Source of the DNA: Taeniopygia guttata
Taxonomy: Eukaryota; Chordata; Aves; Passeriformes; Estrildidae
Assembly (NCBI RefSeq): GCF_048771995.1
Contig: NC_133025.1
Span: 1,736,001 to 1,800,000, forward strand
Reading direction: 5' to 3'
DNA: 64,000 bases
Part shown: one piece after another, positions 6,446-54,600 of the stretch
Layout: every line of letters begins with the position of its first letter
Position numbering within the stretch: position 1 is the stretch's first letter
Position numbers and translations under genes: made by a program
Notes under the pieces: model-generated
The model's database searches: none
What the model saw: the letters and a program-made list of their open reading frames with translations, nothing else
Told to the model about the DNA's origin: nothing

Positions 6446-6689
6446 TCACTCCTCCTTGGGCCGGCGGCGGCGCGCCAGGAGGGGCCCGAGGCTGTTCCAC
6501 ACCTCGGTGTACATCAGGGTGCCCACGAAGACGAAGGTGGTGCCCAGCCAGTGCCAGCCCGTGAAGGGGTTCTGGAAGTAGAGGATGGAGAAGATGAGGC
6601 TGACGAATTTGCGGAGTGTCACCACCAGGGTGACCGTGAGGGACGTGCACTCCGTGGTCAGGATGAAGACGCCGCGGATGCAGACGTAC
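6446..6689 (-). CDS. SLC35B4: SLC35B4 coding exon 10 with stop
   Basis: Acceptor CTCCCAG|GTACG. Encodes YVCIRGVFILTTECTSLTVT and on to the stop TGA at 6448-6446. The branch-point-like CCTTAGC lies about 14 nt before the acceptor AG, a spacing typical of U12 introns. The 3' end of the exon is very GC-rich and codes the RRRR-containing tail. Confidence 0.95.
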
Positions 6690-9600
6690 CTGGGAGCTGG
6701 AGCTAAGGGATGGACACAGGGAATTCCCTTTGGGAATGGGCAGCCTGCTGTGGGTGAGGGGAAATTCCCTCCTGGGAACAGGACACCACAAACTCAGGGA
6801 CATCCCAAATCTCCCGGTTTCCCCACTGTGTTGGCAATCCCTGCCACAGAGCCAAGGGAAACTCCAAACTCCTCCACTTCCATGGAGCAGCAGTCCCAAA
6901 ATCCCAGAAAAAAGAGGTTGGAAAAGACCTTTGAGATCATCGAGTCCAACCTAAAAAACAGAACTTCCCATTCCCTGTATTTCTGGAGTTACACCACCAG
7001 CAGCTCCCGAGGGCAGGGAAGCCTCCAAGGATTTACCTTCTCCTGGGAGCAGGAGGTAAGGGACAGCAGGGATGGACACTGGGGATTCCCTCTGGGAATG
7101 GGCAGCCTGCTGTGGGTGGGGGGAATTCCCTCCTGCCTGGGATCAGCTGGGAACGGGACACCACAAACTCAGGGACATCCCAAATCTCCTGGTTTCCCCA
7201 CTGTGTTGGCAATCCCTGCCACAGAGACAAAGGAAACTCCAAACTCCTCCACTTCCATGCAGCAGAAGTCCCAAAATCCCAGAACAAACCAGGCTGGAGA
7301 AGACCTTTGAGATCATTGAGTCCAACCTAAAAAACAGAAGTTCCCTTTCCTGGTATTTCTGGAGTTACACCACCAGCAGCTCCCGAGGGCAGGGAAGCCT
7401 CCAAGGATTTACCTTCTCCTGGGAGCAGGAGGTAAAGGACAGCAGGGATGGACACAGGGAATTCCCTTTGGGAATGGGCAGCCTGCTGTGGGTGGGGGAA
7501 ATTCCCTCCTGGGATCAGCTGGGTTGGAACAGGACACCACAAACTCAGGAACATCCCAAATCTCAGACTCCCCTACTGGAGCAGCCAGGACTGAGCTGGA
7601 CAATGGAAACTCCAAATTCCTCCATTTCCATGGAGCAGCAGTCCCAAAATCCCAGAACCAGGCTGGAGAAGACCTTTGAGATCACAGAGTCCAAGCTAAA
7701 AAACAGAACTTCCCATTCCCTGTATTTCTGGAGTTAACTTCCCATTCCCTGTATTTCTGGAGTTACACCACCAGCAGCTCCCAAGGGCAGGGAAGCCTCC
7801 AAGGATTTACCTTCTCCTGGGAGCAGGAGGTAAGGGACAGCAGGGATGGACACTGAGGATTCCCTCTGGGAATGGGCAGCCTGCTGTGGGTGAGGGAAAT
7901 TCCCTCCTGGGATCAGCTGGGAACAGGACACTACAAACTCAGGGACATCCCAAATCTCAGACTCCCCTACTGGAGCAGCCAGGACTGAGTTGGACAACGG
8001 AAACTCCAAACTCCTCCATTTCCATGGAGCAGCAGTCCCAAAATCCCAGAAAAAACAGGTTGGAAAAGACCTTTGAGATCATCGAGTCCAACCTAAAAAA
8101 CGGAACTTCCCATTCCCTGTATTTCTGGAGTTACACCACCAGCAGCTCCTGAGGGCAGGGAAGCCTCCAAGGATTTACCTTCTCCTGGGAGCAGGAGGTA
8201 AGGGACAGCAGGGATGGACACTGGGGATTCCCTCCGGGATTGGGCAGCCTGCTGTGGGTGGGGGAAATTCCCTCCTGGGATCAGCTGGGTTGGAACAGGA
8301 CACCACAAACTCAGGAACATCCCAAATCTCAGACTCCCCTACTGGAGCAGCCAGGACTGAGCTGGACAATGGAAACTCCAAATTCCTCCATTTCCATGGA
8401 GCAGCAGTCCCAAAATCCCAGAACCAGGCTGGAGAAGACCTTTGAGATCACAGAGTCCAAGCTAAAAAACAGAACTTCCCATTCCCTGTATTTCTGGAGT
8501 TAACTTCCCATTCCCTGTATTTCTGGAGTTACACCACCAGCAGCTCCCAAGGGCAGGGAAGCCTCCAAGGATTTACCTTCTCCTGGGAGCAGGAGGTAAG
8601 GGACAGCAGGGATGGACACTGAGGATTCCCTCTGGGAATGGGCAGCCTGCTGTGGGTGAGGGAAATTCCCTCCTGGGATCAGCTGGGAACAGGACACTAC
8701 AAACTCAGGGACATCCCAAATCTCAGACTCCCCTACTGGAGCAGCCAGGACTGAGTTGGACAACGGAAACTCCAAACTCCTCCATTTCCATGGAGCAGCA
8801 GTCCCAAAATCCCAGAAAAAACAGGTTGGAAAAGACCTTTGAGATCATCGAGTCCAACCTAAAAAACAGAACTTCCCATTCCCTGTATTTCTGGAGTTAC
8901 ACCACCAGCAGCTCCTGAGGGCAGGGAAGCCTCCAAGGATTTACCTTCTCCTGGGAGCAGGAGGTAAGGGACAGCAGGGATGGACACTGGGGATTCCCTC
9001 CGGGATTGGGCAGCCTGCTGTGGGTGAGGGGAAATTCCCTCCTGGGATCAACTGGTTTGGAACAGGACACCACAAACTCACTACAAACATCCCAAATCTC
9101 AGACTCCCCTACTGGAGCAGCCAGGACTGAGTTGGACAACAGAAACTCCAAACTCCTCCATTTCCATGGAGCAGCAGTCCCAAAATCCCAGAACAATCCA
9201 GGCTGGAAAAGACCTTTGAGATCATCGAGTCCAACCTAAAAAACAGAACTTCCCATTCCCTGTATTTCTGGAGTTACACCACCAGCAGCTCCTGAGGGCA
9301 GGGAAGCCTCCAAGGATTTACCTTCTCCTGGGAGCAGGAGGTAAGGGACAGCAGGGATGGACACTGGGGATTCCCTCTGGGAATGGGCAGCCTGCTGTGG
9401 GTGAGGGAAATTCCCTCCTGCCTGGGATCAGCTGGGAACAGGACACTACAAACTCAGGGAAACCCCAAATCTCAGACTCCCCTACTGGAGCAGCCAGGAC
9501 TGAGTTGGACAATGGAAACTCCAAACTCCTCCATTTCCATGGAGCAAAAGTCCCAAAATCCCAGAAAAAACAGGTTGGGAAAGACCTTTGAGATCACAGA

Positions 9601-12600
9601 GTCCAAGCTAAAAAACAGAACTTCCCATTCCCTGTATTTCTGGAGTTACACCACCAGCAGCTCCCGAGGGCAGGGAAGCCTCCAAGGATTTACCTTCTCC
9701 TGGGAGCAGGAGGTAAGGGACAGCAGGGATGGACACTGGGGATTCCCTCTGGGAATGGGCAGCCTGCAGGAAATTCCCTCCTGCTTGGATCAGCTGGGTT
9801 GGAACAGGACACTACAAACTCAGGAACATCCCAAATCTCAGACTCCCCTACTGGAGCAGCCAGGACTGAGTTGGACAACAGAAACTCCAAACTCCTCCAT
9901 TTCCATGGAGCAGCAGTCCCAAAATCCCAGAACAATCCAGGCTGGAAAAGACCTTTGAGATCATCGAGTCCAACCTAAAAAACAGAACTTCCCATTCCCT
10001 GTATTTCTGGAGTTACACCACCAGCAGCTCCTGAGGGCAGGGAAGCCTCCAAGGATTTACCTTCTCCTGGGAGCAGGAGGTAAGGGACAGCAGGGATGGA
10101 CACTGGGGATTCCCTCTGGGAATGGGCAGCCTGCTGTGGGTGAGGGAAATTCCCTCCTGCCTGGGATCAGCTGGGAACAGGACACTACAAACTCAGGGAA
10201 ACCCCAAATCTCAGACTCCCCTACTGGAGCAGCCAGGACTGAGTTGGACAATGGAAACTCCAAACTCCTCCATTTCCATGGAGCAGAAGTCCCAAAATCC
10301 CAGAACAAACCAGGCTGGAGAAGATCTTTGAGATCACAGAGTCCAAGCTAAAAAACAGAACTTCCCATTCCCGGTATTTTTGGAGTTACACCACCAGCAG
10401 CTCCTGAGGGCAGGGAAGCCTCCGAGGATTTACCTTCTCCTGGGAGCAGGAGGTAAGGGACAGCAGGGATGGACACTGGGGATTCCCTCTGGGAATGGGC
10501 AGCCTGCTGTGGGTGGGGAAAATTCCCTCCTGGGATCAGCTGGGGTGGAACAGGACACTACAAACTCACTACAAACATCCCAAATCTCAGACTCCCCTAC
10601 TGGAGCAGCCAGGACTGAGCTGGACAATGGAAACTCCAAACTCCTCCATTTCCATGGAGCAGCAGTCCCAAAATCCCGGAAAAAAGAGGTTGGAAAAGAC
10701 CTTTGAGATCATGGAGTCCAACCTAAAAAACAGAACTTCCCATTCCCTGTATTTCTGGAGTTACACCACCAGCAGCTCCTGAGGGCAGGGAAGCCTCTGA
10801 GGCTTTAGGAAGCCTCCAAGGCTTTAGGAAGCCTCCAAGGATTTAGGAAGCCTCCAAGGATTTAGGAAGCCTCCAGGGATTTAGGAAGCCTCCAGGGATT
10901 TAGGAAGCCTCCAGGGATTTAGGAAGCCTCCAAGGCTTTAGGAAGGCAGCCCCAATCCCGCTGTGCCACCCCACAAAGGGTGGGATCAGGATAAAGGATA
11001 CTGGGTGATGACGTTCATGAGGAGGTAGAACCACATGATTGGCAGGGTGAGGCCGATCACCGGCACCTGGAACAGCTCTGCAGGGAAAAATGGAAAATAA
11101 GGAGAAATATTAGGAGAAAAGCTCTGTTTTGCTCTCCTGGGTCAGAGCTCTCGTGCTGGAGGAATCCACTCTGCTCACACAGCAAATCCTGGGGAACACC
11201 AGCAAAGAACATCCCAGCAGGCCCATGCTTACATCCCTTATTGAGGATTAAGTCCTGGTATTCCCATTTTTGAGCCACCACGTTCCTTTTCCCAGGGATC
11301 ACTCTTGGATGTGGCTGGTGTGTGGGAATTAGTCAGAAACTTGGGCTTTAATCATGGAATTATGGAATGGTCCCTTAAATTCCATATTCCCATCCACGGC
11401 GGGGACACCTCCCACTGTCCCAGGCTGCTCCAGCCCCAATGTCCAACCTGCCCTTGGACATTCCAGGGATCCAGGGGCTGCCCCAGCTGCTCTGGCAATT
11501 CCAGCCCAGCCAGGAATTCCTTCCTGCAAATTCCTCAAAATTCAGAAGGCTTGGAACACCCCAAGCTGCCAGCATGCACCACTGCAGGAAGGGAACTTCC
11601 CAGAGGATTTTCCAGAGGCTGGGAAGGCCCAGGAGCACGGAGCCCTCAGCACAGCACTCACCAGACTGGTTGAAGAGCACGGCGTGCTGGTAAATGTTGG
11701 GAGCCAGGAGCAGGAATCCAGGGAGTGGCAACGCATGCTGGGGGGAGAAACAAATCCATGGTGGGATCAGGGGATGGAATCCACCCCAATTCCCTGCTGG
11801 AAAGCAGCTGGATCTCAGCAGGCTCCTCACTGCTCCATCCTGGCAGTGTGGGATCCTTTTTGTGCCCAATCCAGGAGTGGAAGGGACCTTGGAGCAGGGA
11901 GAGCCCCAGGGACTCACGTTGTAGAACAGGGCCTCCTTGGAGTGCTTCCCAAATTTCTTGTACAGCATCTCCTGGAAAATCCCCATCCTGGCAGACATCA
12001 GCAGGGCAAAGGTGAGGGCAGCAATACCTGGAAGGGAAGCACAGCCCTGCAGCTTCAACTCACCAAATTTGGCTTTCAGGGAAAAAAAACCAAAAACCAA
12101 ACAAACTGCCCAGACTTGGTAAGAAAACTGATAACAATTCTAGGGTTTGATTACAGGTATCCAAGAGATCCCTTAAAAATACCAGGGATGCACTTTGTGC
12201 CACTACTGATAATAATCAATCCCAGATTTCCCAAAGAGCCACCAACAGAGCCAGGGCAGAGGTAGAAAACCACACTTTAAAGCCTCCTCCATCAACTGCT
12301 GTGCTGAAGGAACACCGGGAGCAGCCCCAGCCCCTCGTCCTCTCTGCTCCAGGCAGGGCTGCTTTCACCTAGAGAATTCCAAGAATCCTGCCAGTATCCC
12401 AGAAATGTGAGCCTCACATACCCAGCAGCCACCAGAGGAAAGCCTGGGGTCCATCCTCTTCATTTGAGCTGGAGTCAGATGCCTGAAGGGAGACACAAAG
12501 TCACCAAGAGCCACCAGGCCCCTGCAGTAGCCACAGGCTTCCCGCTCTGCTCCAGGGAATGCAGAGATTCCAGCAAAAAAAAAAGGCAGAATCTGATCAA

Positions 12601-15600
12601 ATCAGGATTGTTGCTGAAAGGAAGGGCCTGGTTTGATGAGACTGAACTCTTTTAACCACAAAAATAATCAAGGTCCCTTTTCAAGCTCCCAAAGCCAGCC
12701 CAATCCCAGGGTCCTGTGTCCTCATCCCATTCCAAGGTTTTTGTATCCCCATCCCATTCCCAGATTCCTGTGCTGCCTTTTCATTCCTGGGTTCCTGTGC
12801 TCTCATCCTATTCCCATGTTCCTGTATCCCCATTCCCAGGTTCTTCTATCTCCATCCCATTCCCAGGTTCCTGTGTCCCCATTCCTGGGTTCCTGTGCTC
12901 CCATCCCATTCCCATGTTCCTGTATCCCCATTCCCAGGTTCCTGTATCCCCATTCCCAAGTTCTTCTATCTCCATCCCATTCCTGGGTTCCTGGGTCCCC
13001 ATTCCTGGGTTCCTGTGCTCCCATCCCATTCCCAGGTTCCCGTGTCCCCATCCCATTCCCAGGTTCCTGTATCCCCCATTCCTGGGTTCCTGTGCTCCCA
13101 TCCCATTCCCAGGCTCCTGTGCCCCATTCCCGGGTTCCTGTGTCCCCCATTCCCAGGTTCCTGTATCCCCATTCCCAGGTTCCTGTGTCCCCATTCCCAG
13201 GTTCCTGTGTCCCCATCCCCAGGTTCCTGTGCCCCCATTCCCAGGTTCCTGTGCTCCCATCCCATTCCCAGGCTCCTGTGTCCCCATTCCCAAGTTCTTC
13301 TATCTCCAGCCCATTTCCAGGTTCCTGTGTCCCCATTCCCAGGTTCCTGCGCTCCCATCCCATTCCCAGATTCCTGTGCTGCCTTTTCATTCCTGGTTTC
13401 CTGTGCTCCCATCCTATTCCCATGTTCCTGTATCCCCATTCCCAGGTTCTTCTATCTCCATCCCATTCCCAGGCTCCTGTGTCCCCATTCCCATGTTCCT
13501 GTATCCCCATTCCCAAGTTCTTCTATCTCCATCCCATTCCCAGGTTCCTGTATCCCCATTCCTGGGTTCCTGTGTCCCCATTCCCAGGTTCCTGTATCCC
13601 CATTCCCAGGTTCCTGTGTCCCTATTCCTGGGTTCCTGTGCTCCCATCCCATTCCCATGTTCCTGTATCCCCATTCCCGGGTTTCTGTGTCCCCATTCCC
13701 AGGGATGACTGTGTAGGAAGGAAGAAGAGCTCTGGCCAAACCCATCAGGAGCTAAAACCAGACCTAAACCCAGGCTTGTGCTCAAGAGATGGATGAAATC
13801 AGGCTGAGGGCACAGCTCCAGCCGGACTTGCCTCAGGGAAAATCAGATTTATTCACCTTTGCCACAGCTGTCAGCGCAACCCCGAATTCCAGCCCTGCTG
13901 GGAGCTGATGTGGATTAACAGAGAGCCAAAGTTGCAGAGCCCAGCCCTTCCTTGGGTAAAAAGCTCTGGAATGATGGGGAATTTGGAGCTTTGACAGCTC
14001 CCTTTCATTTCCAACCTCTCCGAGCTGGATTAAGTGCAGCCAATTTTCCCTTTCTGCCATTTTTTTGTCATCAGCTGACAGGGTCAGGCCGTGGGTGCTG
14101 ACTCTGATTGTATTCCACATGGATTTGCTTCCCTCCCTCCTGCTCTCCAAGCACTGGCACTTTATTTAAGGGTCAGGCTGGATGACAACAGGAAAAATCC
14201 AGCCTGAAAGGCCACAATTTCTTGTGGGATGGAAAGAGGGAAGATTTCTGATGGCTTTTTGTTGAGGATTCACCTTCTCCTGCCTGCCAGGAGCAAGAAA
14301 AAGCAGCTTCTGTCTGTTACCTCTGAGGCCAAAGAAAAATGAAGTTTATTCCCAGCAAAAAGCAGCGTGAACAGGTGAAGAGACACCTGTAATTAAACAA
14401 AATCCCACAGGAAAATAAAACCAGGAGGAAAAGCTTTTCGGGGAGCGATGTAGAGGTCGGAGACACCTCATGTCTCCGTGAAAAACCAGGCAAAGGGAAT
14501 TTCTGAGGCTCCTCGTCCCTTCCCATCCTTACCACTTGCTTGGCAGACATGAAGGTGCAGGTGAAGATGCCCAGGGACACCAGGGCGATGGAGCTGTATT
14601 TTGACACGCTGTACCTGCACAGGGGACAAGGGACACGTCACCAACCCTGCCTGGCATCCCTGCTTCCCTGGATATCCGGGATTCCGGGATAACAGGCACG
14701 CTGCCCCTCCTGACCTGCCAGGGCCAGCTGACTCCAGCTCAGCACCTCAGGAGGTTTTCCTCCCCACCTTTATCCCAGTTTATCCCAACACTTGTCCCTC
14801 AGGAAGCTTTCCTCCCCACCTTTATCCCAGATTATCCCAACACTTCTCCCAGTTTATCCCACAACTCCAGCCTTGAGTCTGTGCAGGCACGGCTCAGCGT
14901 TATCAGCGTGTTATTAATGTGTTATCAGCATGTTATCGATGTGTAATCATCATGTATTAATGTGTTATCAGCGTGTTATCAACGTGTTATCAGCATGTTA
15001 CTGATGTGTTATCAGCGTGTTATTAATGTGTTATCAGCATGTTATTGATGTATTAATAATGTGTTATCAGTGTGTTATTGATGTGTTATCAGCATGTTAT
15101 TGATGTATTAATGTGTTATCAGTGTGTTATTAATGTGTTATCAACGTGTTATAAGTGTGTTATTGGTGTGTTATCAGCATATTATCAGCATGTTATTGAT
15201 GTGTTATCAACCTGTTATCAGCGCGTTATTAGTGTGTTATCAGCACATTATCAGCGTGTTATTAATGTGTTATCAGCGTATTATCAGCATATTATTGATG
15301 TGTTATCAGTGTGTTATTAATGTGTTATCAGCACGTTATTGATGTGTAATCAGTGTGTTATTAGTGTGTTATCAGCATATTATCAGCATGTTATTGATGT
15401 GTTATCAGCATGTTATCAGCGTGTTATTGATGTGCTATCAACGTGTTATCAGCACGTTATTAATGTGTTATCAGCATGTTATCAGTGTGTTATTGATGTG
15501 CTATCAACATGTTATCAGCATGTTATTGATGTGTTATCAACGTATTATCAGAGTGTTATTGATGTGTTATCAGCATGTTATCAGCGTGTTACTGATGTGT

Positions 15601-18600
15601 TATCAGCATGCTATTGATGTGTTATCAGCATGTTATCAGCACGTTATTAATGTGTTATCAACCTGTTATCAGCATGTTATTTATGTTATCAGCATGTTAT
15701 TAATGTGTTACCAGCATGTTATCAGTGTGTTATTGATGTGTTATCAGCATGTTATCAGCACTGCTGGAGCCACAATCCCCACCGAGCTCCACCCCAGCCA
15801 CAGCCAGCACAGAATCCCTCAGGAGCTCTTCCAAAACTGAACAGAGAGGCTGCAGCTGTGGAAAATCTAATTCCAGCCAAGACAGGAGGGAAGAGGTGGA
15901 AATGCAGAAGGAGCTATTCCAGCCTCTATGCCATGCTCTCTGTCCCAGTTCCCCACCATTAAAATCAGAATATTTAACAGGAAGAATGATGGCACGAAAC
16001 ACCCAGCGGGATTTAATCCATGGCAGAGATTCCCTAAAGATAAGAAGTGTGTGATTTACCTTTTCTTCAGGATGATGATCCCTAGAGCCATGCTTGCTAT
16101 GAGAGAACCCTGGGGAAAAAAACCAAAAAAAAAAAACAGATGGGAAAACCAAAACATGAGGTCAGCAGGCCAGAATTCCCCAGCTTGGGATGCTGATCCC
16201 AAAGGGACACTGCAAACTCAGTGTGGTGGATACCAAGAGAAACACCACGTTTGAAACAGGAAAACTGACTTTAATGGGAGAAGGTGCAGCTTCCTTGAGG
16301 TTGGATACTGGGAAAAATCCTGCCCTGGAAGGGTTGTCCAGCCCTGGAGGGATTTCCAAGTCCTGTGGTACGTGGGACATGGGGCAGTGATGGCTTGGCA
16401 GTGCTGGGACTGGTTGGACTCCATGAGCTTAAAGTTCTTCTCCTGCCTCAATGATTCCATGATTCCCTTCATCCAGGAAACGGGGAGAAGGTGAGCTGGC
16501 TCCCTTGGGAATAAGGATACTGGGCTGGGGACCTCCCCTTTATTTTTTTTCAGAATGTGGCCAAATCCCACTAGTTTAACTGGGAGCAGGAGCCCAGCTC
16601 CAGGGATTGACTGCAGGAGCAGAACCACCCCTCGCAGTTCATGGGGGACAGGTCTCCTGCAGCGTGGGCTGGTTTTGAACCTCTCCCCATTCCAGATATT
16701 CCACCCCCAGGATGTGCTGTGGGAAAAGAGCTCCCACCAGGAGGTTTTGTTATTCCCAACAGCTGGGGCTCCATTTCCTTGGGGTTTAAGAGATCTTTTA
16801 GCCTGGCACTCATCCACACTTAGGTGAAGATGCAGTTTAATGGGTTTTTTCCCAAAGCAAAGAACTGTGCAGGTGGATTAGGCCAAATCCCAAATCCCAA
16901 ATCCATGCTCTCTGACCTGTGATGTTCAAGACCAGAACATGAATCACTTGGTGGCAGGGAAAGCTGAATCCCTGTGGCCAACCAGAGTCTGGGATTGCTT
17001 TTGTCACCGCCACTTCCCCCTTAGCTCTGGAATTCCAAAGCCTGTCTGAGCCTGTTTCCCTGTCTATCCATTAACCTGGAATTTAATGATCAACACCATA
17101 ACGTGAAACCTTTGGAGCTGAGCTTTGGAGCGAGGCTGCTCTCCCACCAGCTGGAATTCAGGATTTCCACAGGGGTTTGGTGCTCTCGGGACACATGGAG
17201 CAGGGATGGTTGCAGCAGAAATGATGGAATGGGAGCCCCAGGAGGAGGAGGAGGAGGAGGAGGAGGAGGGTGCTCACCGAACGGAAGATCATGTGCAGTG
17301 GCATCGCGATGTTCAGGTTCAGGGCGTAGTTATTGACCACGCTGACGGTGAAGAACATGGCCACCATGATGAAATAGTTCCTGAAACGTGGAAAAATACC
17401 TGGGAGATGTGCAGGAACCTCCCTGAGATGCTGAGAGACCCCCCAGGAATAATCATGGGATGCATGGAGAGGTTTGGAGCAGAGCAGAGATTCTGGGTCT
17501 GTCACCAAGCTCGTCCCCAGTGGAGAAATGTGAAGTGAATTTGGGTGATTTTCCAGGAAAACTTTCCCTTCCCACTCCCACCACACCAAATCCCAGAGAT
17601 AAAAAGCTCTTGAAGCACAACAAACTCTTCCCTGTGCAAAACTCTGCCCCGTTCCTGTGACAGGGAAAGATCTGATGGCAATTTCCCATTAAAAACTCCT
17701 GATAAACGAGTGGGGATTTTATCCAGCCTGGCAGCTTCCCAACATGGCTCTGCAGATGCTGCAGGATGGATGGGATTTCCACAGGATAAGTGGAAAAGCC
17801 ACTTTATGAAAAGTTTTTTGGAGGTAAGAGAGATCCAGGCCACTCCTGCTGGGGAAAACCTTGGGATTGTACCTGATGGGGATGGCCGGGCGCTTCCTCC
17901 CGAAGTTGGCCTCGAAGATGAAACCTTCCAGCGCAATGAACAGGAACTGGGAGAAGGTCACGATGTTCCCACATCCTGGGAACTGCCTGCAGGCAGGGAG
18001 AGACCAGCATCAGAGCCATTCCAGGGAGAGCTAACACTGGGATCCAACAAAAGGAGGCAGCAGAGCCAGAATCCTACCCCTTTTCCCAGACTCCTGTCCC
18101 TTTTCCCAGAATCCTATCCCTTTTTCCAGACTCCTATCCCTTTTCCCAGAATCTCATCCCTTTTCCCAGAATCCTACCCCTTTTTCCAGAATTTTATCCC
18201 TTTTTCCAGACTCCTATCCCTTTCCCCAGAATCCTAACCCTTTTTCCCAGAATCTTGTCCCTTTTCCCAGACTTCTATCCCTTTTTCCAGAATCCTACAC
18301 CTTTTCCCAGACTCCTACCCCTTTTCCCAGAATCCTGTGCCTTTTCCCAGACTCCTGTGCCCTTTTCCCAGACTCCTGTCCCTTTTCCCAGAATCCTACC
18401 CCCTTTTCCAGAATTCTACACCTTTTCCCAGACTCCTACCCCTTTTTCCAGAATCCTACACCTTTTCCCAGAATCCTACCCCTTTTCCCAGAATCCTACC
18501 CCTTTTCCAAGACTCCTGTCCCCTTTTTCCAGAATTCTATCCCTTTTCCCAGACTCCTATCCATTTTTCCAGACTCCTGTCCCCTTTTCCCAGACTCCTG

Positions 18601-21600
18601 TCCCCTTTTCCCAGACTCCCATCCATTTTTCCAGAATCCCATCCCTTTTCCCAGAATCCTACCCCTTTTCCCAGAATCCTACCCCTTTTCCCAGACTCCT
18701 GTCCCTTTTCCCAGACTCCTGTCCCTTTTCCCAGAATTCTATCCTTTTTCCCAGACTCCTGTCCCTTTCCCCAGAATCCTACCCCATTTCCCAGAATCCT
18801 ATCCGTTTTTCCAGACTTCTGCCCCCTTTTCCCAGACTTCTGCCCCCTTTTCCCAGACTCCTGCCCCCTTTTTCCAGACTCCTATCCATTTTTCCAGACT
18901 CCTATCCATTTTTCCAGACTCCTATCCCTTTTCCCACAAAGAGACCCACCCTGGAGAGGTTTTACTCAGGGTTTGTTCACCTGAGCTTGTGCAAACACCT
19001 GCAGGGTGTTTCCTCCAACATTTCCCAAGATGAACTTGGAATGTTGGAGCAGTCAGGTCAGGGAAGTGAAAGAAAAAACTGCTGGATCTCTCTCTTTCCC
19101 ACGGGAAGTGGCTTTAGGAGGACTCTGTGTTTGTTAGAGGTCAGGTAATCTGAGGTAATCTGCCTTTCCAGGGAGAAAAGGCAGCTGGAAATTCAATATT
19201 CCTCATGCCTGCTGCAGGAGGGAAGTGCCAAGGTCAGGTCTGTGCTGGCAGAGTGTCCCTGGTTCAGATTTGCTCAATTTCCTCTAAAAAAGTTTCAGCT
19301 CCCCTGGGATTTCTGAATTCTAGAAGGGACCAAAACTCCTCACAGGAGCCCAAAAAAAGTCCTGGAAGAAATCCCACGTGACATCCATGGATTTTTTAAT
19401 GTGACAACAACTGCTCTAGGATCCCAAATCAACAAAATTTTGTCTGAGCTCAAAAGGGACCCTCTTAGTCCCTTTTTGTCCCTCCCTGGAGGGACCCAGG
19501 AGTCCAAAAATGCCACCAGTTCCGAGCAATCCAAATGTTTATCCTGTGGGAACAGGAATTCCACAATTCCAAAGCAAGGAATTCAAACAAACATTCCCTG
19601 AGGAGCCCCCAGGGAGCAGGGAAGGATTTCCTGGGAAGCAGAAGCTCAGAGGAGGCTGTGACAGGGCAGATAATGAGAAAACTCATGGGAGATGAAGGAA
19701 TTTAGAGAATATTTCCTTTTTTTTTTTTTTTTCCTCCTGGTGTAAGACAGAAAGTGAGGCCAAGCATTCCTGGGAGAGTCCTGCTCCTCAAGGAACATGC
19801 TGGATGCAGTTTTGCAGGATTCAAGCTGGGAAATGCCCTGGAAAACAGGAATTTCCAAGCTGCCTCCTCCAAATTCTCCTCTGTCACCCCACAGAGCTCT
19901 GAGGAGCAGCAGCCACATGGGGAATGCAGGGCTGAGCCGACAACACCTGGAAAAATCCCATTTTCCCTGCTTTTTCCAGGGATGGGCACCACCCTGAGCC
20001 ACTTCCCTCTGCCCACCTGCCAATTCTTCTTCCCAGAAGAAGAATTATCCATAAAACTTCGTTATCTTTTCAGCTCTGAGGCTGAAAGGTTCAAAAGGGA
20101 CAAAGAGAAGAGACCTTGAAGCAGAGCCAGAAGCTCCAGGATTGCAAATCTTATCTCCAGCCTTATCTCCAAGTTTTCACCCCCAAAGGGGATCACAAGG
20201 AGCTGGAAACCTGTGATAAAACCCAAGGATGGGCTTTGCCTCCTCCCAAATCACAGAGCCCTGGACATGACCCCATTTTATCAGCACTGTTGGCACTCGG
20301 GGTTTTGTGCTGGCTGATAAAAAGGGCTCCTTCTTTGGCTCACAATCCTCACTCAGATCCACCTAAAAAATGAGATCAGTTTGGATCTATCAACCCAAGA
20401 TCTGCTTCAGCTGCAGACAACCAAAAAGAGTCCTCCCAGCAAGAAGTCTCCCTGCTCTCTCTCCTACTCCACTACATGGAAAGGGAGAAAATCTGATTTT
20501 TGGGCCTGATTTACATCCCTTCCACAGCAATTTGAGCCCCTAAAATCAAGAAATTTGAGATTGCTTGTTCTGCCTCCCCAGCCCAGCAGAAATATTTTTC
20601 TTCTCTCCTCTGCAGCCACTCTCCACACATTTAAACTATTTTGTCTGCCCTCAGGTATTTCCAGATTAAACACTTCTCATTCCTTGGCTTTCCTTATAAA
20701 TCCTGAGCAAACTTCTTCCCAATCAACTTTGCTACTCCTCACCAACCTGGTCACTGCCTTCTCCAGGATTTTGCTTGTTATTGGGAATATTCATCTGCAG
20801 GAGGAAATTTTCCTTCCAAAACCCAACAAAATAATTGGTGTTATCCCAATTTTGGGATTAAAGGTGAGCAGGGCAAGTAAAAGGCACAGGAATTGAGCTG
20901 TTGGGATTTTTAGGAATTTTTAAAGTGGATGAGAGGTGCTGCTTGAAAGAAGGTTTTGTGTGAAAAGCAGCTTTCCCTTGATGTCTGCAATTGGATTTCT
21001 GGAATTTGCTCCTCTGGGCTTGAGTCACCTTTGAATAATTCAGTCTTTGAACAGGGCCAAATGTTTTGGTTTAAGGTTTGCTGTGAGGAGACCTGAGTGG
21101 CAAAAAAAGCCAAATCCAAAGGGTTGTTGTTTTTTTTTTTGCTTCCAAAGGGTTCAGCCCTCCTCTGTCACTGATGCTGCAACACAAACCAGGCAGGAAA
21201 TCAGAGGTTGGAGTAATCCCTGAGAGAAAAAACAGCTCCTCACACAAACTCCGTGATTTATCCAGGGATTGTGCACCTGAATCCCATTTGGGAGCAAATA
21301 TCCCAACTGCTGGATTTTGCAGTCCCTTTTTCCTTTAATAATCTGGGATATTGATGGGCTGGGAGGGAGTAAGGGCTGATTTTGGAAGCTGGAGTGCACT
21401 GAGGGCTCAGGGGTGCAGCCCCACGCTGACTCACTGGGATTTTACACACCAAACCAGTTCAAGCATCACTTTTTTCCCAGTCAGGCCTTCCCACCTTTCT
21501 GAACAGCCCCTGCCCAAGCTTCCAGCCTTCCTCCATCAGGGTGAGGAAGGTGAGATCCCCAAAATCATCAGGGTGAGGAAGGTGAGATTCCCAAAATCAT

Positions 21601-22787
21601 CAGGGTGAGGAAGGTGAGATTCCCAAAATCATCAGGGTGAGGAAGGTGAGATTCCCAAAAACATCAGGGTGAGGAAGGTGAGATCCCCCAAAAACATCAG
21701 GGTGAGTGAGGAAGGTGAGATCCCCAAAATTATCAGGGTGAGTTAGGAAGGTGAGATCCCCCAAAAACATCAGGGTGAGTGAAGAAGGTGAGATCCCCAA
21801 AAACATCAGGATGAGGAAGGTGAGATCCCCAAAAACACCAGGGTGAGTGAGGTGAGATCCCCAAAATCACCAGCCTCCAATCTGAGAATTCAAGGGGACT
21901 CGGTGACTTTGCAGCGAGCGAGGATTCCAGGTGGAAAACATTCCAGGGATTCCAGGTGGAAAACATTCCAAGACCCCAAGCTCGGATTTCCAGGAGGAAA
22001 ACATTCCCTGCTGTCCCCAGGGGCAGCTCCTGCCTTGTCCCTGGGATCTGAGCGCTGGGACAGGGTGGGATGGGGACATCCCCTAGCCCGGACACATTAT
22101 TTAGTCATTTATTTGGATGTCACATAATTGATATGAACTGAGTTATAAATTAATTTAATTTCAATTTTAATGGGAGTGAATTTTATTATTAAATCTCCCT
22201 CCACAACTCCCTGACAGGAGGATGGAGCAAGGTGGGAATCCAGCTATTTTCCCAAGGAATAAAGGACACGATGGAAGAAAAGGGGAAAATAAACAAACCC
22301 CAAAAGCTTCCTGAGCTGACATTTTAGGGTTATTTTCACACTGAAGCACATTAAAAAAAAAAAAAAAAAAAAACCAACAAAAAAAAAAAAACCACCAAAC
22401 CGATTTGTTGTGTGGCTTTAATCCAGTTTAGAGCCAAGGTGCTGCATTGGGGTGCCCAGAACACCCCAAACCCACCTAGCAGGGACACAGGCGATGATTT
22501 ACCTCTGGGCTCTTCCATGAGGGGCTCTGGGCTCTTCCATGAGGGGCACCGAGGCCTGAGGGGTTTAAAACCCCCTCAGCACCCCAAATCCCCCCAAACC
22601 CACCCCGGCACTGCTGCTGCGTCCCCTCACACACCCTGAGGGGATCCCATCCCAACAGGATCACCCCGATCCCGACCCTTTTTCCCTCAGCCCTCCCCTC
22701 GGCCCCGCACCTGGCCAGCAGCTCCAGGAACACCACGTTGCTGCAGCAGCCGCCGAACACCAGCCCCACAGCCACGGCCGGGTGCAT
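6446..22787 (-). CDS. SLC35B4: SLC35B4, UDP-sugar transporter (complete, 10 coding exons)
   Basis: Nucleotide-sugar transporter of the SLC35/drug-metabolite-transporter superfamily. The family member carries UDP-xylose and UDP-GlcNAc into the Golgi/ER lumen and is expected to have about ten membrane helices. Coding exons: 22787-22711, 17986-17873, 17380-17278, 16109-16060, 14614-14533, 12482-12422, 12027-11918, 11737-11662, 11077-11002, 6689-6446. These join to 993 nt in one open frame, 330 residues plus stop (human is 331). Landmarks recalled from the human protein are intact: MHPAVAVGLVFGGCC at the N terminus, NNYALNLNIAMPLHMIFRS, ALLMSARMGIFQE, GKHSKEALFYN, LTTECTSLTVTLVVTLRKF and FSILYFQNPFTGWHWLG. 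The start has G at -3 and matches the family N terminus. The last dozen residues (ending RRRRPKEE) differ from the human lysine-rich tail. All introns are GT-AG; the last has U12-type signals. Identification rests on remembered family sequence plus perfect phase agreement. Confidence 0.96.
6700..10790. repeat. ~370-bp satellite carrying a CR1 3' tail, with higher-order repeats
   Basis: Eleven or so units. The phrase 'ttaccttctcctgggagc' recurs at about 7035, 7411, 7809, 8177, 8575, 8943, 9320, 9692, 10059 and 10432. Each unit contains 'ggttggaaaagacctttgag' plus 'atcatcgagtccaacct', a CR1 tail in minus orientation. Spacing alternates 398/368, giving a 766-bp higher-order repeat (7411-8176 and 8177-8942, near identical), and a 739-bp pair at 9320 and 10059. 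The left edge merges with the exon-10 acceptor. Confidence 0.93.
10795..10945. repeat. ~20-bp minisatellite at the end of the CR1-tail satellite
   Basis: About eight units of 'aggaagcctccaaggattt'. The unit derives from the edge of the larger satellite unit (gggaagcctccaaggattta). It ends some 50 bp before the U12 donor of SLC35B4. Confidence 0.9.
11002..11077 (-). CDS. SLC35B4: SLC35B4 coding exon 9
   Basis: Acceptor CTGCAG|AGCT. Encodes ELFQVPVIGLTLPIMWFYLL and on to MNVITQ. The exon ends ACCCA|GTATCCTTTA, whose intron side is the U12-class donor consensus, not a U2 donor. Confidence 0.94.
11345..11545 (-). mobile_element. CR1 LINE 3' fragment
   Basis: Minus orientation. Contains 'ccttggacattccagggatc', 'agctgctctggcaattccag' and a degraded tail at 11350-11380. 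Lies in SLC35B4 intron 8. Confidence 0.8.
11662..11737 (-). CDS. SLC35B4: SLC35B4 coding exon 8
   Basis: Acceptor CCCCAG|CATG, donor GTCTG|GTGAGT. Encodes HALPLPGFLLLAPNIYQHAV and on to LFNQS, ending in phase 1. Confidence 0.94.
11918..12027 (-). CDS. SLC35B4: SLC35B4 coding exon 7
   Basis: Acceptor TTCCAG|GTAT, donor TACAAC|GTGAGT. Encodes GIAALTFALLMSARMGIFQE and on through MLYKKFGKHSKEALFYN, one of the most conserved stretches of the family. Confidence 0.95.
12422..12482 (-). CDS. SLC35B4: SLC35B4 coding exon 6
   Basis: Acceptor CTTCAG|GCAT, donor GCTGG|GTATGT. Encodes ASDSSSNEEDGPQAFLWWLL, an acidic loop followed by the start of the next membrane helix. Confidence 0.92.
12715..13705. 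repeat. 22-bp pyrimidine-rich minisatellite
   Basis: About 45 units on 'cccattcccaggttcctgtg' with longer variants carrying an extra 'atcccattc'. The plus strand is strongly C/T-rich, so the SLC35B4 transcript is G/A-rich here. All three frames stay open over long stretches; not coding. Begins 230 nt upstream of exon 6. Confidence 0.95.
13706..14532. other. SLC35B4 intron 5 remainder
   Basis: Single-copy-looking intron sequence, no feature recognised. Confidence 0.5.
14533..14614 (-). CDS. SLC35B4: SLC35B4 coding exon 5
   Basis: Acceptor GTGCAG|GTAC, donor CAAGTG|GTAAGG. Encodes YSVSKYSSIALVSLGIFTCT and on to FMSAKQV, ending in phase 0. Confidence 0.94.
14890..15765. repeat. 10-12-bp minisatellite (GTTATCAGC / GTTATTGAT type)
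   Basis: About 80 units of 'gtgttatcagcatgttattg'-like sequence alternating TATCAGC and TATTGATG/TATTAATG forms. Starts 276 nt upstream of SLC35B4 exon 5. Confidence 0.95.
16060..16109 (-). CDS. SLC35B4: SLC35B4 coding exon 4
   Basis: A 50-nt exon, acceptor CCCCAG|GGTT, donor AAAAG|GTAAAT. It encodes GSLIASMALGIIILKK plus two bases of an Arg codon, the conserved GSLIA...ILKKR segment. Confidence 0.93.
16290..16470 (+). mobile_element. CR1 LINE 3' fragment
   Basis: Plus orientation. Contains 'ccttgaggttggatactggg', 'gatggcttggcagtgctggg' and ends 'aatgattccatgattccc', the CR1 terminal repeat. Confidence 0.8.
17239..17270. repeat. (GGA)n microsatellite abutting an exon donor
   Basis: About ten GGA units. 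On the transcript strand it forms a CCT-rich tract only about 6 nt after the exon-3 donor GTGAGC. Confidence 0.95.
17278..17380 (-). CDS. SLC35B4: SLC35B4 coding exon 3
   Basis: Acceptor TTTCAG|GAAC, donor TCG|GTGAGC. Encodes NYFIMVAMFFTVSVVNNYAL and on to NLNIAMPLHMIFRS, ending in phase 0. A pure GGA/TCC microsatellite sits a few nucleotides inside the donor. Confidence 0.95.
17873..17986 (-). CDS. SLC35B4: SLC35B4 coding exon 2
   Basis: Acceptor CTGCAG|GCAG, donor ATCAG|GTACAA. Encodes RQFPGCGNIVTFSQFLFIAL and on through EGFIFEANFGRKRPAIPI, matching the family. A 20-bp minisatellite begins about 80 nt upstream (transcript sense). Confidence 0.95.
18065..18935. repeat. 20-bp pyrimidine-rich minisatellite
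   Basis: About 45 units of 'ccttttcccagactcctgtc' and 'ccttttcccagaatcctacc'. Strong C/T bias on the plus strand. Begins 79 nt upstream of SLC35B4 exon 2. Confidence 0.95.
18936..21535. other. SLC35B4 intron 1, single-copy portion
   Basis: About 2.6 kb without recognised exons or arrays. A poly-T run lies near 19715. Confidence 0.5.
21536..21875. repeat. ~31-bp minisatellite in SLC35B4 intron 1
   Basis: About eleven units of 'catcagggtgaggaaggtga' plus 'gatccccaaaa', some with a GTGA insertion (gtgagtgagg). Confidence 0.93.
21900..22690. other. SLC35B4 intron 1 near the promoter
   Basis: Includes four spaced copies of 'aggtggaaaacattcc' or aggaggaaaacattcc (21930-22010) and an A-rich tract at 22350-22392. 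No gene recognised. Confidence 0.5.
22711..22787 (-). CDS. SLC35B4: SLC35B4 coding exon 1
   Basis: Encodes MHPAVAVGLVFGGCCSNVVF and on to LLA, the first transmembrane segment. It ends in phase 2 at CCAG|GTGCGG. It lies in a CpG-rich stretch. Upstream of the ATG is 5' UTR/promoter sequence. Confidence 0.95.
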
Positions 22788-51600: not shown

Positions 51601-54600
51601 CTTAAAAACACAACTGAGAGTGAATAAACATTGACACCCAGGCACGAAGCTAATATAAAAAATAAAATAAATCAGGCTGGACAGAGAAGCTGAGTTCACT
51701 ATGGGAGAAGGAAAAAAGCTACAAGGACAGGAGTCAGGTACTTACAGCTTCCACCATTTTGTCAAATTCTTCTTGAGAAATGAAATAATAATCAAATCTG
51801 TTTTCTTCCCCAAAATAAGCCGTCCTGGTGGTGTGACAGGGCCTGGGGGATTTATGGCAGAATAAAGAAATAACTTGTTTTCAATCCCTGCAGCAACTCT
51901 GCAATAGCAGTGAGAGGGGGGGAAAGCAGGGAAACGATAAATAATTTTATTTTTAAGCAGCAAAGAAATACGAGAAATAGAAAGAGGTGCAAATCACACC
52001 CCTAAATGCTGCGTGTTTGAAAGATTAACCTATAAATACACCAAAAAAAGTTAAATGTAACGTGGTATTTTGGCTATAAATCCCTCCCCAGCCCAGGATG
52101 GCCTGAGCTGAAGCTGTCACAGCAGCCTGGCACTGAGAAATGATGAACCCATTTTTTTCCCCAATTCTGTCAGCTTGGGGATGATAGAAAGTCAAATCCT
52201 AAATGTGGAAAAGGAGCTGGGCTGAGCTGTGAGGTTAAGAAAGAGCTCCAAAGTCCAATTTTTAAACAGATGTCTAATGGGAAGGGGAGAAACAATCCTG
52301 AAAGTGGGGAGGAAAGTGGGATAAAAGGCAGGGAAAGTAAAAACTTCAGCTACCTCAGCTTCAAACTAGGATAAAACACTAAAATCCCACTAAAAAATTC
52401 CCCCAAAACCCAGCTAATTAATGCAGGTAACAATTTGAGACTCAAGTATTCGCTGGCTCTTGTTCTGTTTGAAAATCAGATTTTTCTCCTAAGTTCTGCT
52501 TATCCCATATGGATATGGGATATATCCTTATCCCATAAAGATATATCCTTATCCCATAAGGATAAACCTCAGCCACCAGGGTAAAACACTAAAAACCCAC
52601 TCAAAAATCCCTAAAAAACCCCAGTTAATTAATGCAGGTAACAATTTGAGACTCAAGTATTTGCTGGCTCTTGTTCTGTTTGAAAATCAGATTTTTCTCC
52701 TAAGTTCTGCTTTGCCATCGAGTGGGATAAAAGGCAGGGAAAGGAATTCCCTGCCATCCCATAAGGATAAATATCAACCACCAGGGTAAAACACCAAAAA
52801 CCCACTAAAACCCCCAAAAATCAGGTTATTAATGCAGGTGGTAATTTAATACTGAAGTATTCTGTGGGTCTGGTTCTGTTTGAAAAATCAGATTTTTCTT
52901 CTCGTTTCTGCTTTGCCATTCAAGTGGGAATAAAGTCTGGGAAAGGAATTCCCTGCCATCCCATAAGGATAAATATCAGCCACTATGGCAAAACATTAAA
53001 AACCCACTAAAACCCCCCAAAAATCAGATTATTAATGCTGATTAATGCTAATTTAATACTGAAGCATTCCGTGGGTCTGTTTCTGTTTGGAAATCAGATT
53101 TTTCTCCTCATTTCTGCTTTGCCATTAAAGTGGAATAAAAGGCAGGGAAAGGAATTTCCTGCCATCCCATAAGGATAAACCTCAGCCACCAGAGTAAAAC
53201 ACTAAAATCCACTAAAAACCCCCAAAAACCAGATTATTAATGCAGGTAGTAATTTAATACTGCAATATTCAGTGGGTCTGGTTCTGTTTGAAAATCAGAT
53301 TTTTCTCCTAATTTCTACTTTGCCATTCAAGCGGGAATAAAGTCTGGGAAAGGAATTCCCTGCCATCCCATAAGGATAAATATCAGCCACCAGGGTAAAA
53401 CACTAAAAACCCACTCAAAAATCCCAAAAAAACTCCAGTTAATTAATGCAGATAACAATTTGTGACTCAAGTATTCACTGGCTCTTGTTCTGTTTGAAAA
53501 TCAGATTTTTCTCCTCATTTCTGCGTTGCCATTAAAGTGGAATAAAAGGCAGGGAAAGGAATTCCCTGCCATCCCAGAAGGATAAACATCAGCCACCAGA
53601 GTAAAACACTAAAATCCACTAAAAACCCCCAAAAACCAGATTATTAATGCAGATGGTAATTTAATACTGCAGTATTCCGTGGGTCTGGTTCTGTTTGAAA
53701 AATCAGATTTTTCTCCTGGTTTCTGCATTGCCATCAAGTGGGAATAAAGGCTGGGAAAGGAATTCCCTGCCATCCCATGAGGATAAATATCAGCCACCAG
53801 GGTAAAACACTAAAAACCCACTCAAAAATCCCTCAAAAAACCCCAAAACCCACAGTTAATTAATGCAGGTAACAATTTGAGACTCAGGTATTTGCTGGCT
53901 CTTGTTCTGTTTGAAAATCAGATTTTTCTCCTCGTTTCTGCTTTGCCATTCAAGTGGGAATAAAGGCTGGGAAAGGAATTCCCTGCCATCCCATAAAGAC
54001 AAATATCAACCACTAGGTTAAAACACTAAAAACCCACTCAAAAATCCCCAAAAAAACCCCAGTTAATTAATGCAGGTAACAATTTGAGACTCAAGTATTC
54101 GCTGGCTCTTGTTCTGTTTGAAAATCAGATTTTTCTCCTAAGTTCTGCTTTGCCATCGAGTGGGATAAAAGGCAGGGAAAGGAATTCCCTGCCATCCCAT
54201 AAGGATAAACATCAGCCACCGGGGTAAAACACTAAAAACCCACTAAAACCCCCAAAAATCAGATTATTAATGCTGATTAATGCTAATTTAATACTGAAGC
54301 ATTCAGTGGGTCTGGTTCTGTTTGGAAATCAGATTTTTCTCCTCATTTCTGCTTTGCCATCAAGTGGGATAAAAGGCAGGGAAAGGAATTCCCTGCCATC
54401 CCATAAGGATAAACATCAGCCACCAGAGTAAAACACTAAAATCCACAAAAAATCCCCAAAAACCAGATTATTAATGCAGGTGGTAATTTAATACTGCAGT
54501 ATTCAGTGGGTCTGGTTCTGTTTGAAAATCAGATTTTTCTCCTCATTTCTGCTTTGCCATTTCTCTCATTTATTCCAGGGAGCTGGGCTGGGAACCAGTC

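Follow-up and report, generated by a model that had tools for sequence, protein, structure and literature searches.

The window analysed here is a stretch of 64,000 nucleotides (nt) of Taeniopygia guttata (NCBI RefSeq assembly GCF_048771995.1, contig NC_133025.1, positions 1,736,001 to 1,800,000 of the forward strand), in which the sugar-transporter gene SLC35B4 lies on the minus strand. The last intron of this gene, intron 9 (+11001 to +6690, 4312 nt), consists mostly of a tandem array with units of ~370 base pairs (bp), and ten of these units carry a copy of the 3' splice site that precedes exon 10. A tblastn search with a human SLC35B4 protein sequence located ten exons between +22787 and +6446. 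The joined exons encode an intact open reading frame of 330 amino acids, and its product gave a full-length match to the Pfam UAA transporter family (8e-123). Among the matches listed, the top homologue (97% identity) represents a 47-sequence cluster named Pyrgilauda ruficollis (snowfinch), followed by Corvus (96%) and Catharus (94%). Exon 9 (11002..11077, minus strand, 76 nt) was assigned by tblastn, splice sites and open frame and has the 3' end ...ATCACCCA. Exon 10 (6446..6689, minus strand, 244 nt including the stop), assigned by tblastn and open frame, is the last coding exon.

The donor of intron 9, GTATCCTTT (10993..11001, minus strand), is a GT donor of the U12 type that fits the U12 5' splice-site consensus [A/G]TATCCTTT at all nine positions and scores 16.7 of a maximum of 16.7. 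Its U2 donor score is -1.1, against 4.5–10.2 for the eight remaining donors of SLC35B4. The U12 and U2 splice matrices used throughout were approximate versions, not the published ones, and the maximum of the U12 branch matrix is 15.4. The authentic acceptor, CCATCCCTTAGCTCCAGCTCCCAG (6690..6713, minus strand; located by sequence, unit alignment and scoring), reads CCATCCCTTAGCTCCAGCTCCCAG|GTACG at the exon boundary. Its branch site (TCCCTTAGC...CCCAG) matches the U12 consensus TTCCTTAAC at 7 of 9 positions (reference motif TTCCTTRAY) and scores 7.55 of 15.4 on the approximate matrix, which ranks it fourth among 329 intron AGs, after three AGs that are served by one variant copy in the array. 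The branch-to-acceptor distance is 13 nt from motif position 8 and 14 nt from the branch A. Since the optimal distance for U12 introns is 11–13 nt (PMC3584512), the predicted spacing is short and U12-like, at or just past the optimum. A U12 small nuclear RNA (snRNA) gene with the branch-binding sequence GAGTAAGGAAAAT is present in the same assembly (149.2 bits). By these signals, intron 9 is predicted to be of the U12 type, its donor being good and its branch site weak. Exon 10 opens with GTACGT right after the CAG (6684–6692), so that the authentic junction, CAG|GTACGT, can be read as a U2-type donor too and looks like a recursive splice site.

Tandem Repeats Finder (TRF) reported a single array at 6706–10797 with a period of 373 and 10.9 copies. 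With unit alignment and BLAST, the ~370-bp array was placed at 6690..10807 (minus strand) and comprises ten decoy-bearing units, designated U0–U9, and the exon-proximal unit U10 with the authentic acceptor. At its far end lies a minisatellite of 19 bp (TAAATCCTTGGAGGCTTCC in transcript sense; 10789..10945, minus strand, 8.3 copies). The ten decoy modules, identified by pattern search, U12 scoring and U2 scoring, lie on the minus strand at 10428..10462, 10055..10089, 9688..9722, 9316..9350, 8939..8973, 8571..8605, 8173..8207, 7805..7839, 7407..7441 and 7031..7065, the last being closest to exon 10. Their GCTCCCAG|G sites end, in the same order, with the AG at +10440, 10067, 9700, 9328, 8951, 8583, 8185, 7817, 7419 and 7043, and the eleventh site of this type, ending at +6690, is that of exon 10. 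Each module holds a branch-like element (TCCCTTACC in module 1), the AG, GAGAAG and GTAAAT. The upstream copies read CTTACCTCCTGCTCCCAG|GAGAAG|GTAAAT, one of them with TTT for CTT (CTTT for CCTT at 7419). This ninth module is the variant copy TCCTTTACC, which has the top U12 branch score of the eleven sites (7.95 for GTCCTTTAC). As decoy sequences, nine copies read TGTCCCTTACC and the copy at 7419 reads TGTCCTTTACC; the 30-mer TACCTCCTGCTCCCAGGAGAAGGTAAATCC occurs unchanged in 10/10, and the distance from the branch-like A to the intron end is 14 nt in 11/11 sites. The initial annotation of this locus had proposed that the acceptor flank was amplified about ten times, with a constant spacing of about 14 nt, each unit amounting to an acceptor copy followed by GAGAAG and a donor. 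The TRF array, the unit alignment, the exact 30-mers and the composition of the modules bear out this description.

The 77-nt junction of the copies had at least 10 matches in the species' own 1.14-Gb assembly (41 contigs), and all those listed are at the intron-9 locus. With the whole unit as the query, 51 matches were listed, 11 of which are the intron-9 array; the 40 elsewhere cover only ~60 nt in the middle of the unit. These genome match counts are lower bounds, and the whole-unit search scored 40 of 170 first-look candidates. The region covered by the 40 matches listed elsewhere corresponds to a dispersed-repeat piece (7271..7329 in one copy, minus strand, limits approximate), which may be akin to the 3' end of a CR1 long interspersed nuclear element. 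Neither AATAAA nor ATTAAA occurs in intron 9.

The homology between the array and the acceptor flank extends to the splice site itself. The exon-proximal unit (353 nt) is 88.0–93.8% identical to U1–U9, gaps ignored, and 87.7% identical to U0, a 421-nt piece whose 5' end enters the 19-bp array. At the 3' end of the last unit, identity continues from GTGTCCATCCCT across a 9-nt indel and then over 16 of 18 nt to the AG. None of 5000 shuffles matched the decoy as well as these last 18 nt, and the same result was obtained with the CAG fixed. The authentic acceptor differs from the decoys by the 9-nt indel (GCTGTCCCT, between two CCCT) and two substitutions. By this alignment, the acceptor flank of exon 10 is part of the multiplied tandem unit, with a homology beyond chance, and the doubt raised in the initial annotation, that the flank and the units might not be homologous, is answered. 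The ten copies count as a single event that was multiplied, and not as ten separate coincidences.

On the exon side, the first 26 nt of the unit match exon 10 to a degree reached by 23 of 2000 shuffles, and a gapped match of unit nt 1–64 to exon-10 nt 1–84 was reached by 0/2000, with ends picked after viewing. In a free-ends control (two units, four scorings each), matches as good were found at 282–1106 of 19658 window positions (1.4–5.6%), at 16–42 of 864 coding positions and in 3–10 of 3000 shuffles (0.1–0.3%). The proposal that the unit contains exon 10 sequence was dropped, as the gapped likeness is not significant with free ends and a real-sequence background. This likeness, with an identity far below that of the intron side, is a lead at most.

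After GAGAAGG, units U1–U10 run on as TAAATCCT(T/C)GGAGGCTTCC, the motif of the 19-bp minisatellite, and each unit ends at the AG. The units alternate between two types, and blocks of two units are near-identical, with 1/361 differences between U5 and U7, 6/391 between U6 and U8, 10/365 between U1 and U3 and 8/357 between U2 and U4. The neighbours U1/U2, U3/U4, U5/U6 and U7/U8 differ at 26–31 of 357–365 positions. Because the two-unit blocks are near-identical, the copy number could be slightly misassembled. U10 is a mosaic that shares a substitution block with U9 only and three sites at the 3' end with U8 only. A block of ~37 nt common to U10 (about 6814–6850) and U9 (7188–7225) is quite unlike the same place in the other nine units, and looks as if it were a conversion replacement or an older variant. 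The overall pattern looks like ordinary concerted evolution in which the edge unit has been kept partly apart. The least variable 50-nt stretch of the unit is the acceptor and join, with one variable position. Permutations gave as low a variability in 45/20000 cases for all ten copies, 1605/20000 without U9, and 17 and 5/20000 for two six-copy subsets. Selection on the copies is not claimed, as the support weakens from 45 to 1605/20000 once U9 is omitted.

The U12 branch score is 6.55 for nine copies, 7.95 for the variant copy and 7.55 for the authentic site on the approximate matrix. Elsewhere in the window, a score of 6.5 is reached by 27/3514 AGs on the minus strand and 35/4121 on the plus strand (~0.8%), and in shuffled introns by 526/32596. 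On U12 scoring the copies thus rank among the best one to two percent of AGs, on a par with the authentic site. As U2 acceptors, the copies score 10.14 against 6.20 for the authentic site, and the eight U2 acceptors of SLC35B4 score 8.56–12.48; the score of the copies is reached by 17 of 328 intron AGs, the ten copies included. The U2 donor score of the copies, 9.09, is identical to that of the exon 4 donor (exon 4, 16060–16109; AAAAG|GTAAATC), and the 9-mer AAGGTAAAT occurs also after each decoy GAGAAG (GAGAAG|GTAAATC). The ten copy donors are the ten top-scoring of 270 GTs in intron 9. Sequences of U2-type donors and acceptors within the gene's own U2 range are therefore present inside the U12 intron. 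Ten good sites say little, because the copies are one founder sequence multiplied and the authentic site is itself weak. The other doubt raised in the initial annotation, that no acceptor-like element might survive U12 scoring, is answered too, as the copies do about as well as the authentic site. The picture it drew of a minor spliceosome facing up to eleven similar 3' sites held in part: the perfect U12 donor and the similar scores agree with it, while the label of minor-spliceosome decoy is one-sided because the copies qualify at least equally well as sites of the U2 type, and the likeness to a U12 acceptor is loose because the authentic branch site is weak.

The consequences for the reading frame can be predicted. 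Exon 9 joined to any of the ten copies and read on yields ...ITQRR-stop (10/10), and GAGAAG kept as a micro-exon yields an in-frame RR insertion. After the exon 9 end ATCACCCA, the predicted junction is GTACGTCTGC for the authentic site, GAGAAGGTAAAT for a copy read on and GAGAAGGTACGTC for the 6-nt micro-exon. Among the best 120 of 1610 homologues, exactly Q stands between the exon-9 and exon-10 motifs in 117, and RR occurs in 0/117; the other three, P0049 and P0078 (both birds) and P0103 (Darwinula stevensoni), gave no motif match. The survey says little about the present array because the homologues come from other species and most are probably predicted models. When the exon 9–10 peptide was used to look for a further copy or retrocopy of the gene that might serve as a splicing fossil, the matches listed in the assembly were only the gene's own two exons (2/2). 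No bird sequence was found in viral contigs by pattern, and of 60 pattern matches to the exon-10 peptide 0 were confirmed.

Folding of the decoy core gave a hairpin, CCUU-AC-CUCCUG[CUCC]CAGGAG-AAGG, with -10.1 kcal/mol and a z score of -2.17 (26/1000 shuffles as good); its stem includes the AG, and a two-base bulge holds the branch-like A. The authentic core folds with -3.2 kcal/mol and z -0.64 (237/1000). Shorter pieces gave z -2.73 (2/200) for 26 nt of the copy and -0.22 for 38 nt of the authentic site. The hairpin over the copy AG has modest support. Of the eleven 9-nt branch sites, the authentic one is the most open in each of the three folding settings (1.4- to 5.7-fold above the best copy). 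The A of the authentic AG is more open as well, by 2- to 4.5-fold over the best copy. Openness of the AG was rejected as a discriminator because it is mixed over the three settings, and the U12 pairing energy because the authentic site is not favoured over the nine common copies. CCUUAC of the copies can pair with GUAAGG of U12 without a bulged A, and CCUUAGC of the authentic site frees the A, so the copies may bind U12 unproductively. The sequence GAGAAGGUAAAU after the copy AG (7031–7065 and nine copies) resembles the branch-binding part of U12 snRNA, GAGUAAGGAAAAU, so that each common copy can pair with its own branch site; this self-pairing is probably chance.

We favour, with a probability of roughly 0.6, the reading that the array is a neutral minisatellite, similar to the "mirages" of amphioxus (see below), that grew by unequal exchange, and that splicing takes place at the authentic acceptor, the copies being mostly silent. 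An early tandem duplication would have joined the 3' end of intron 9, through the acceptor AG, to the 19-bp-repeat region near the 5' end of the intron, leaving ~6–7 nt of unaccounted sequence, GAGAAGG, at the join. Such a join would give every copy the acceptor (branch-like A and AG) and not the U12 donor, and we infer that the repeat unit represents most of a once shorter intron, minus its donor. Unequal exchange and conversion would then have amplified the product to ten extra copies, partly in two-unit blocks. The minor spliceosome would still join exon 9 to the authentic AG at 6690. The copies may be mostly silent for four reasons: the A of the U12 branch consensus is replaced by C in the copies, the short hairpin can hide their AG, a real exon follows the authentic AG only, and a U12 donor cannot pair with sites that are read as U2-type.

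Several points weigh against this reading. The copies score about equal to the authentic site as U12 acceptors and higher as U2 acceptors. The hairpin weakens in the variant copy, which is without the outer pairs (z -1.63, 66/1000), and in windows of ~60 nt (z -1.32, 18/200, for the common copy; -0.94, 35/200, for the variant; -0.19 for the authentic site). In two of the three folding settings the G of the authentic AG is less open than that of any copy, and in the same two the openness of the authentic CAG is inside the range of the copies; the branch A is unpaired more in the copies (0.73–0.95) than in the authentic site (0.30–0.58). The U12 duplex energies of the authentic site and the common copies are -7.9 and -8.2, for 11-mers -5.4 and -8.2, and with flanks -8.7 and -8.7 kcal/mol, respectively; the variant copy (-6.4, -5.6 and -7.2 kcal/mol) is the sole weaker copy, in two of the three settings. 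The low variability of the acceptor and join would be expected under selection or recent conversion no less than under neutrality. Furthermore, the silence of the copies is a default that the reading assumes, and the direction of copying is one that we infer from the present sequence.

A possible, if rather improbable, alternative is that the copies compete actively with the authentic acceptor. Some of them would be used by the minor spliceosome, or by the major one once U12 splicing has failed, to give a C-terminally truncated ...ITQRR product or a nuclear-retained RNA, and the array would act as a copy-number-dependent brake on SLC35B4 output. The copies equal the authentic acceptor in U12 score and spacing and exceed it as U2 sites (10.14 against 6.20), and the products read on stop after RR in 10/10 copies, as competition would have it; the hairpin over the copy AG, with its modest support, and the length of the micro-exon, 6 nt being too short for ordinary exon definition, argue the other way. 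That the join is the least variable part of the unit would suit this alternative, as would the typical activation of nearby cryptic U2 sites in compromised U12 introns (PMC8329584). The plain junction in 117 of the best 120 homologues listed is contrary to it, though these proteins belong to other species and most of them are probably gene predictions.

An origin in the reverse direction is unlikely. An intronic repeat holding a chance CTCCCAG would have spread by conversion to the exon edge and displaced the old acceptor. The patches that the authentic unit shares with U8 and U9 suggest an exchange of sequence between the array and the last unit and so lend it some plausibility, but a functioning acceptor would have been needed throughout, and the private differences of the authentic acceptor (two substitutions and the 9-nt indel) are in no copy.

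It is quite unlikely that the array is a set of nested U2 introns, in which each GTAAAT...CTCCCAG stretch (347–392 nt) would be a U2-type intron within the U12 intron and the array would be shortened stepwise, in a recursive or twintron-like manner, before or after the U12 step. The ten back-to-back GT-AG intervals of 347–392 nt have the required form, their donors being the ten best of 270 intron GTs and their acceptors among the 17 of 328 AGs that reach the copy score, the ten copies included; as the copy is a multiplied founder, however, the ten good sites are one coincidence. The branch motif CTTAC fits the U2 consensus yUnAy, but its A is just 14 nt from the intron end, which is short for U2, and the intervening exons would be 6 nt long. 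Vertebrate twintrons with several alternative U2 introns at one U12 position exist (PMC3564746), and the present case would be one read from the sequence alone. A hybrid relay, in which the minor spliceosome joins exon 9 to a copy AG, placing GAGAAG before a strong U2 donor, and the major spliceosome removes the rest in unit-sized step(s), is very improbable; if true, SLC35B4 output or the RR isoform would depend on the array copy number, and a U12 intron would be finished by U2 recursion across a minisatellite.

On the favoured reading of a largely silent minisatellite, the locus would illustrate the ability of the minor spliceosome to pass over sites of good appearance. U12 introns rely on conserved signals at the donor and the branch site. 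Here a single U12 donor is confronted with eleven acceptors of nearly equal quality, ten of which are identical or almost identical and extend over 3.4 kb. This amounts to a natural competition experiment, in which the contributions of distance, hairpin masking, branch base and following exon are separable by the AGs used in RNA.

Tandem repeats are common elsewhere in the gene and in the window. In the span from SLC35B4 exon 1 to exon 10 (6690–22710) they occupy ~48% (7,648/16,021 bp, the ~370-bp array included), as counted over 12 hand-picked arrays of the TRF table, which include a 9-bp overlap and have very different units. The pure (AGG)10 at 17240–17278 in intron 3 starts 8 nt past the exon-3 donor, and another long-unit array at 52368–54561 was called as 206 bp x 10.7 or alternatively as 407 bp x 5.3. 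Among the hand-picked arrays, none other than the ~370-bp array contains a splice site, and this distinguishes it from the many ordinary intronic minisatellites of SLC35B4 itself; next in proximity to a splice site come the 3-bp repeat, at 8 nt from the exon-3 donor, and the 19-bp array, which ends 56 nt from the U12 donor of exon 9.

The initial annotation knew of no described case of a U12 acceptor multiplied in this way. Full-text searches of a PMC library, judged mostly by titles and the openings of abstracts, found no described case for the U12 setting and nothing linking SLC35B4 with a U12-type or minor intron, but the general kind is already known as the mirages of amphioxus (PMC3087553), so that the U12 setting alone is new to the searches made. 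In human genes of segmental duplications, tandem repeats at exon-intron boundaries can create alternative introns, which is a likeness to the SLC35B4 array; those repeats have a mean unit of ~30 bp and about half are in coding exons, and U12 introns are unmentioned in the available part of that source (PMC2812944). Like the twintrons of prospero, PRMT1 and others, intron 9 of SLC35B4 has U2-type sites inside a U12 intron. Twintrons are defined by alternative splicing of both types, whereas the inner sites of SLC35B4 are tandem copies known as sequence, and SLC35B4 is not among the 18 human twintron genes of Table 1 in the portion of that paper available (PMC3564746).

The closest known system is that of the amphioxus mirages, which are minisatellites of duplicated intron-exon boundaries in Adh3 and the globin genes BflGb6 and BflGb9, here compared as described in the accessible part of the source (PMC3087553). 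There, U12 introns are unmentioned and the host is a cephalochordate, and the BflGb6 unit includes the 5' part of an exon, whereas the exon side of the SLC35B4 unit is not established. In both systems the minisatellite-like tandem duplications include a real splice boundary and many copies carry AG/GT, and the amphioxus copies reportedly leave normal splicing undisturbed, as suggested by reverse transcription PCR (PMC3087553). A unit that holds a copy of a real splice site, which characterises a mirage, is found in SLC35B4 in ten copies (16/18 nt, 0/5000 shuffles). The SLC35B4 array would extend the mirage idea, with its bearing on intron gain and splice-boundary instability, to a vertebrate minor intron. 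The BflGb6 mirage duplicates the 3' end of an intron, as the SLC35B4 array does, and its copies are 81–100% identical, with neighbours homogenised and the edge copy apart, as in SLC35B4 (PMC3087553).

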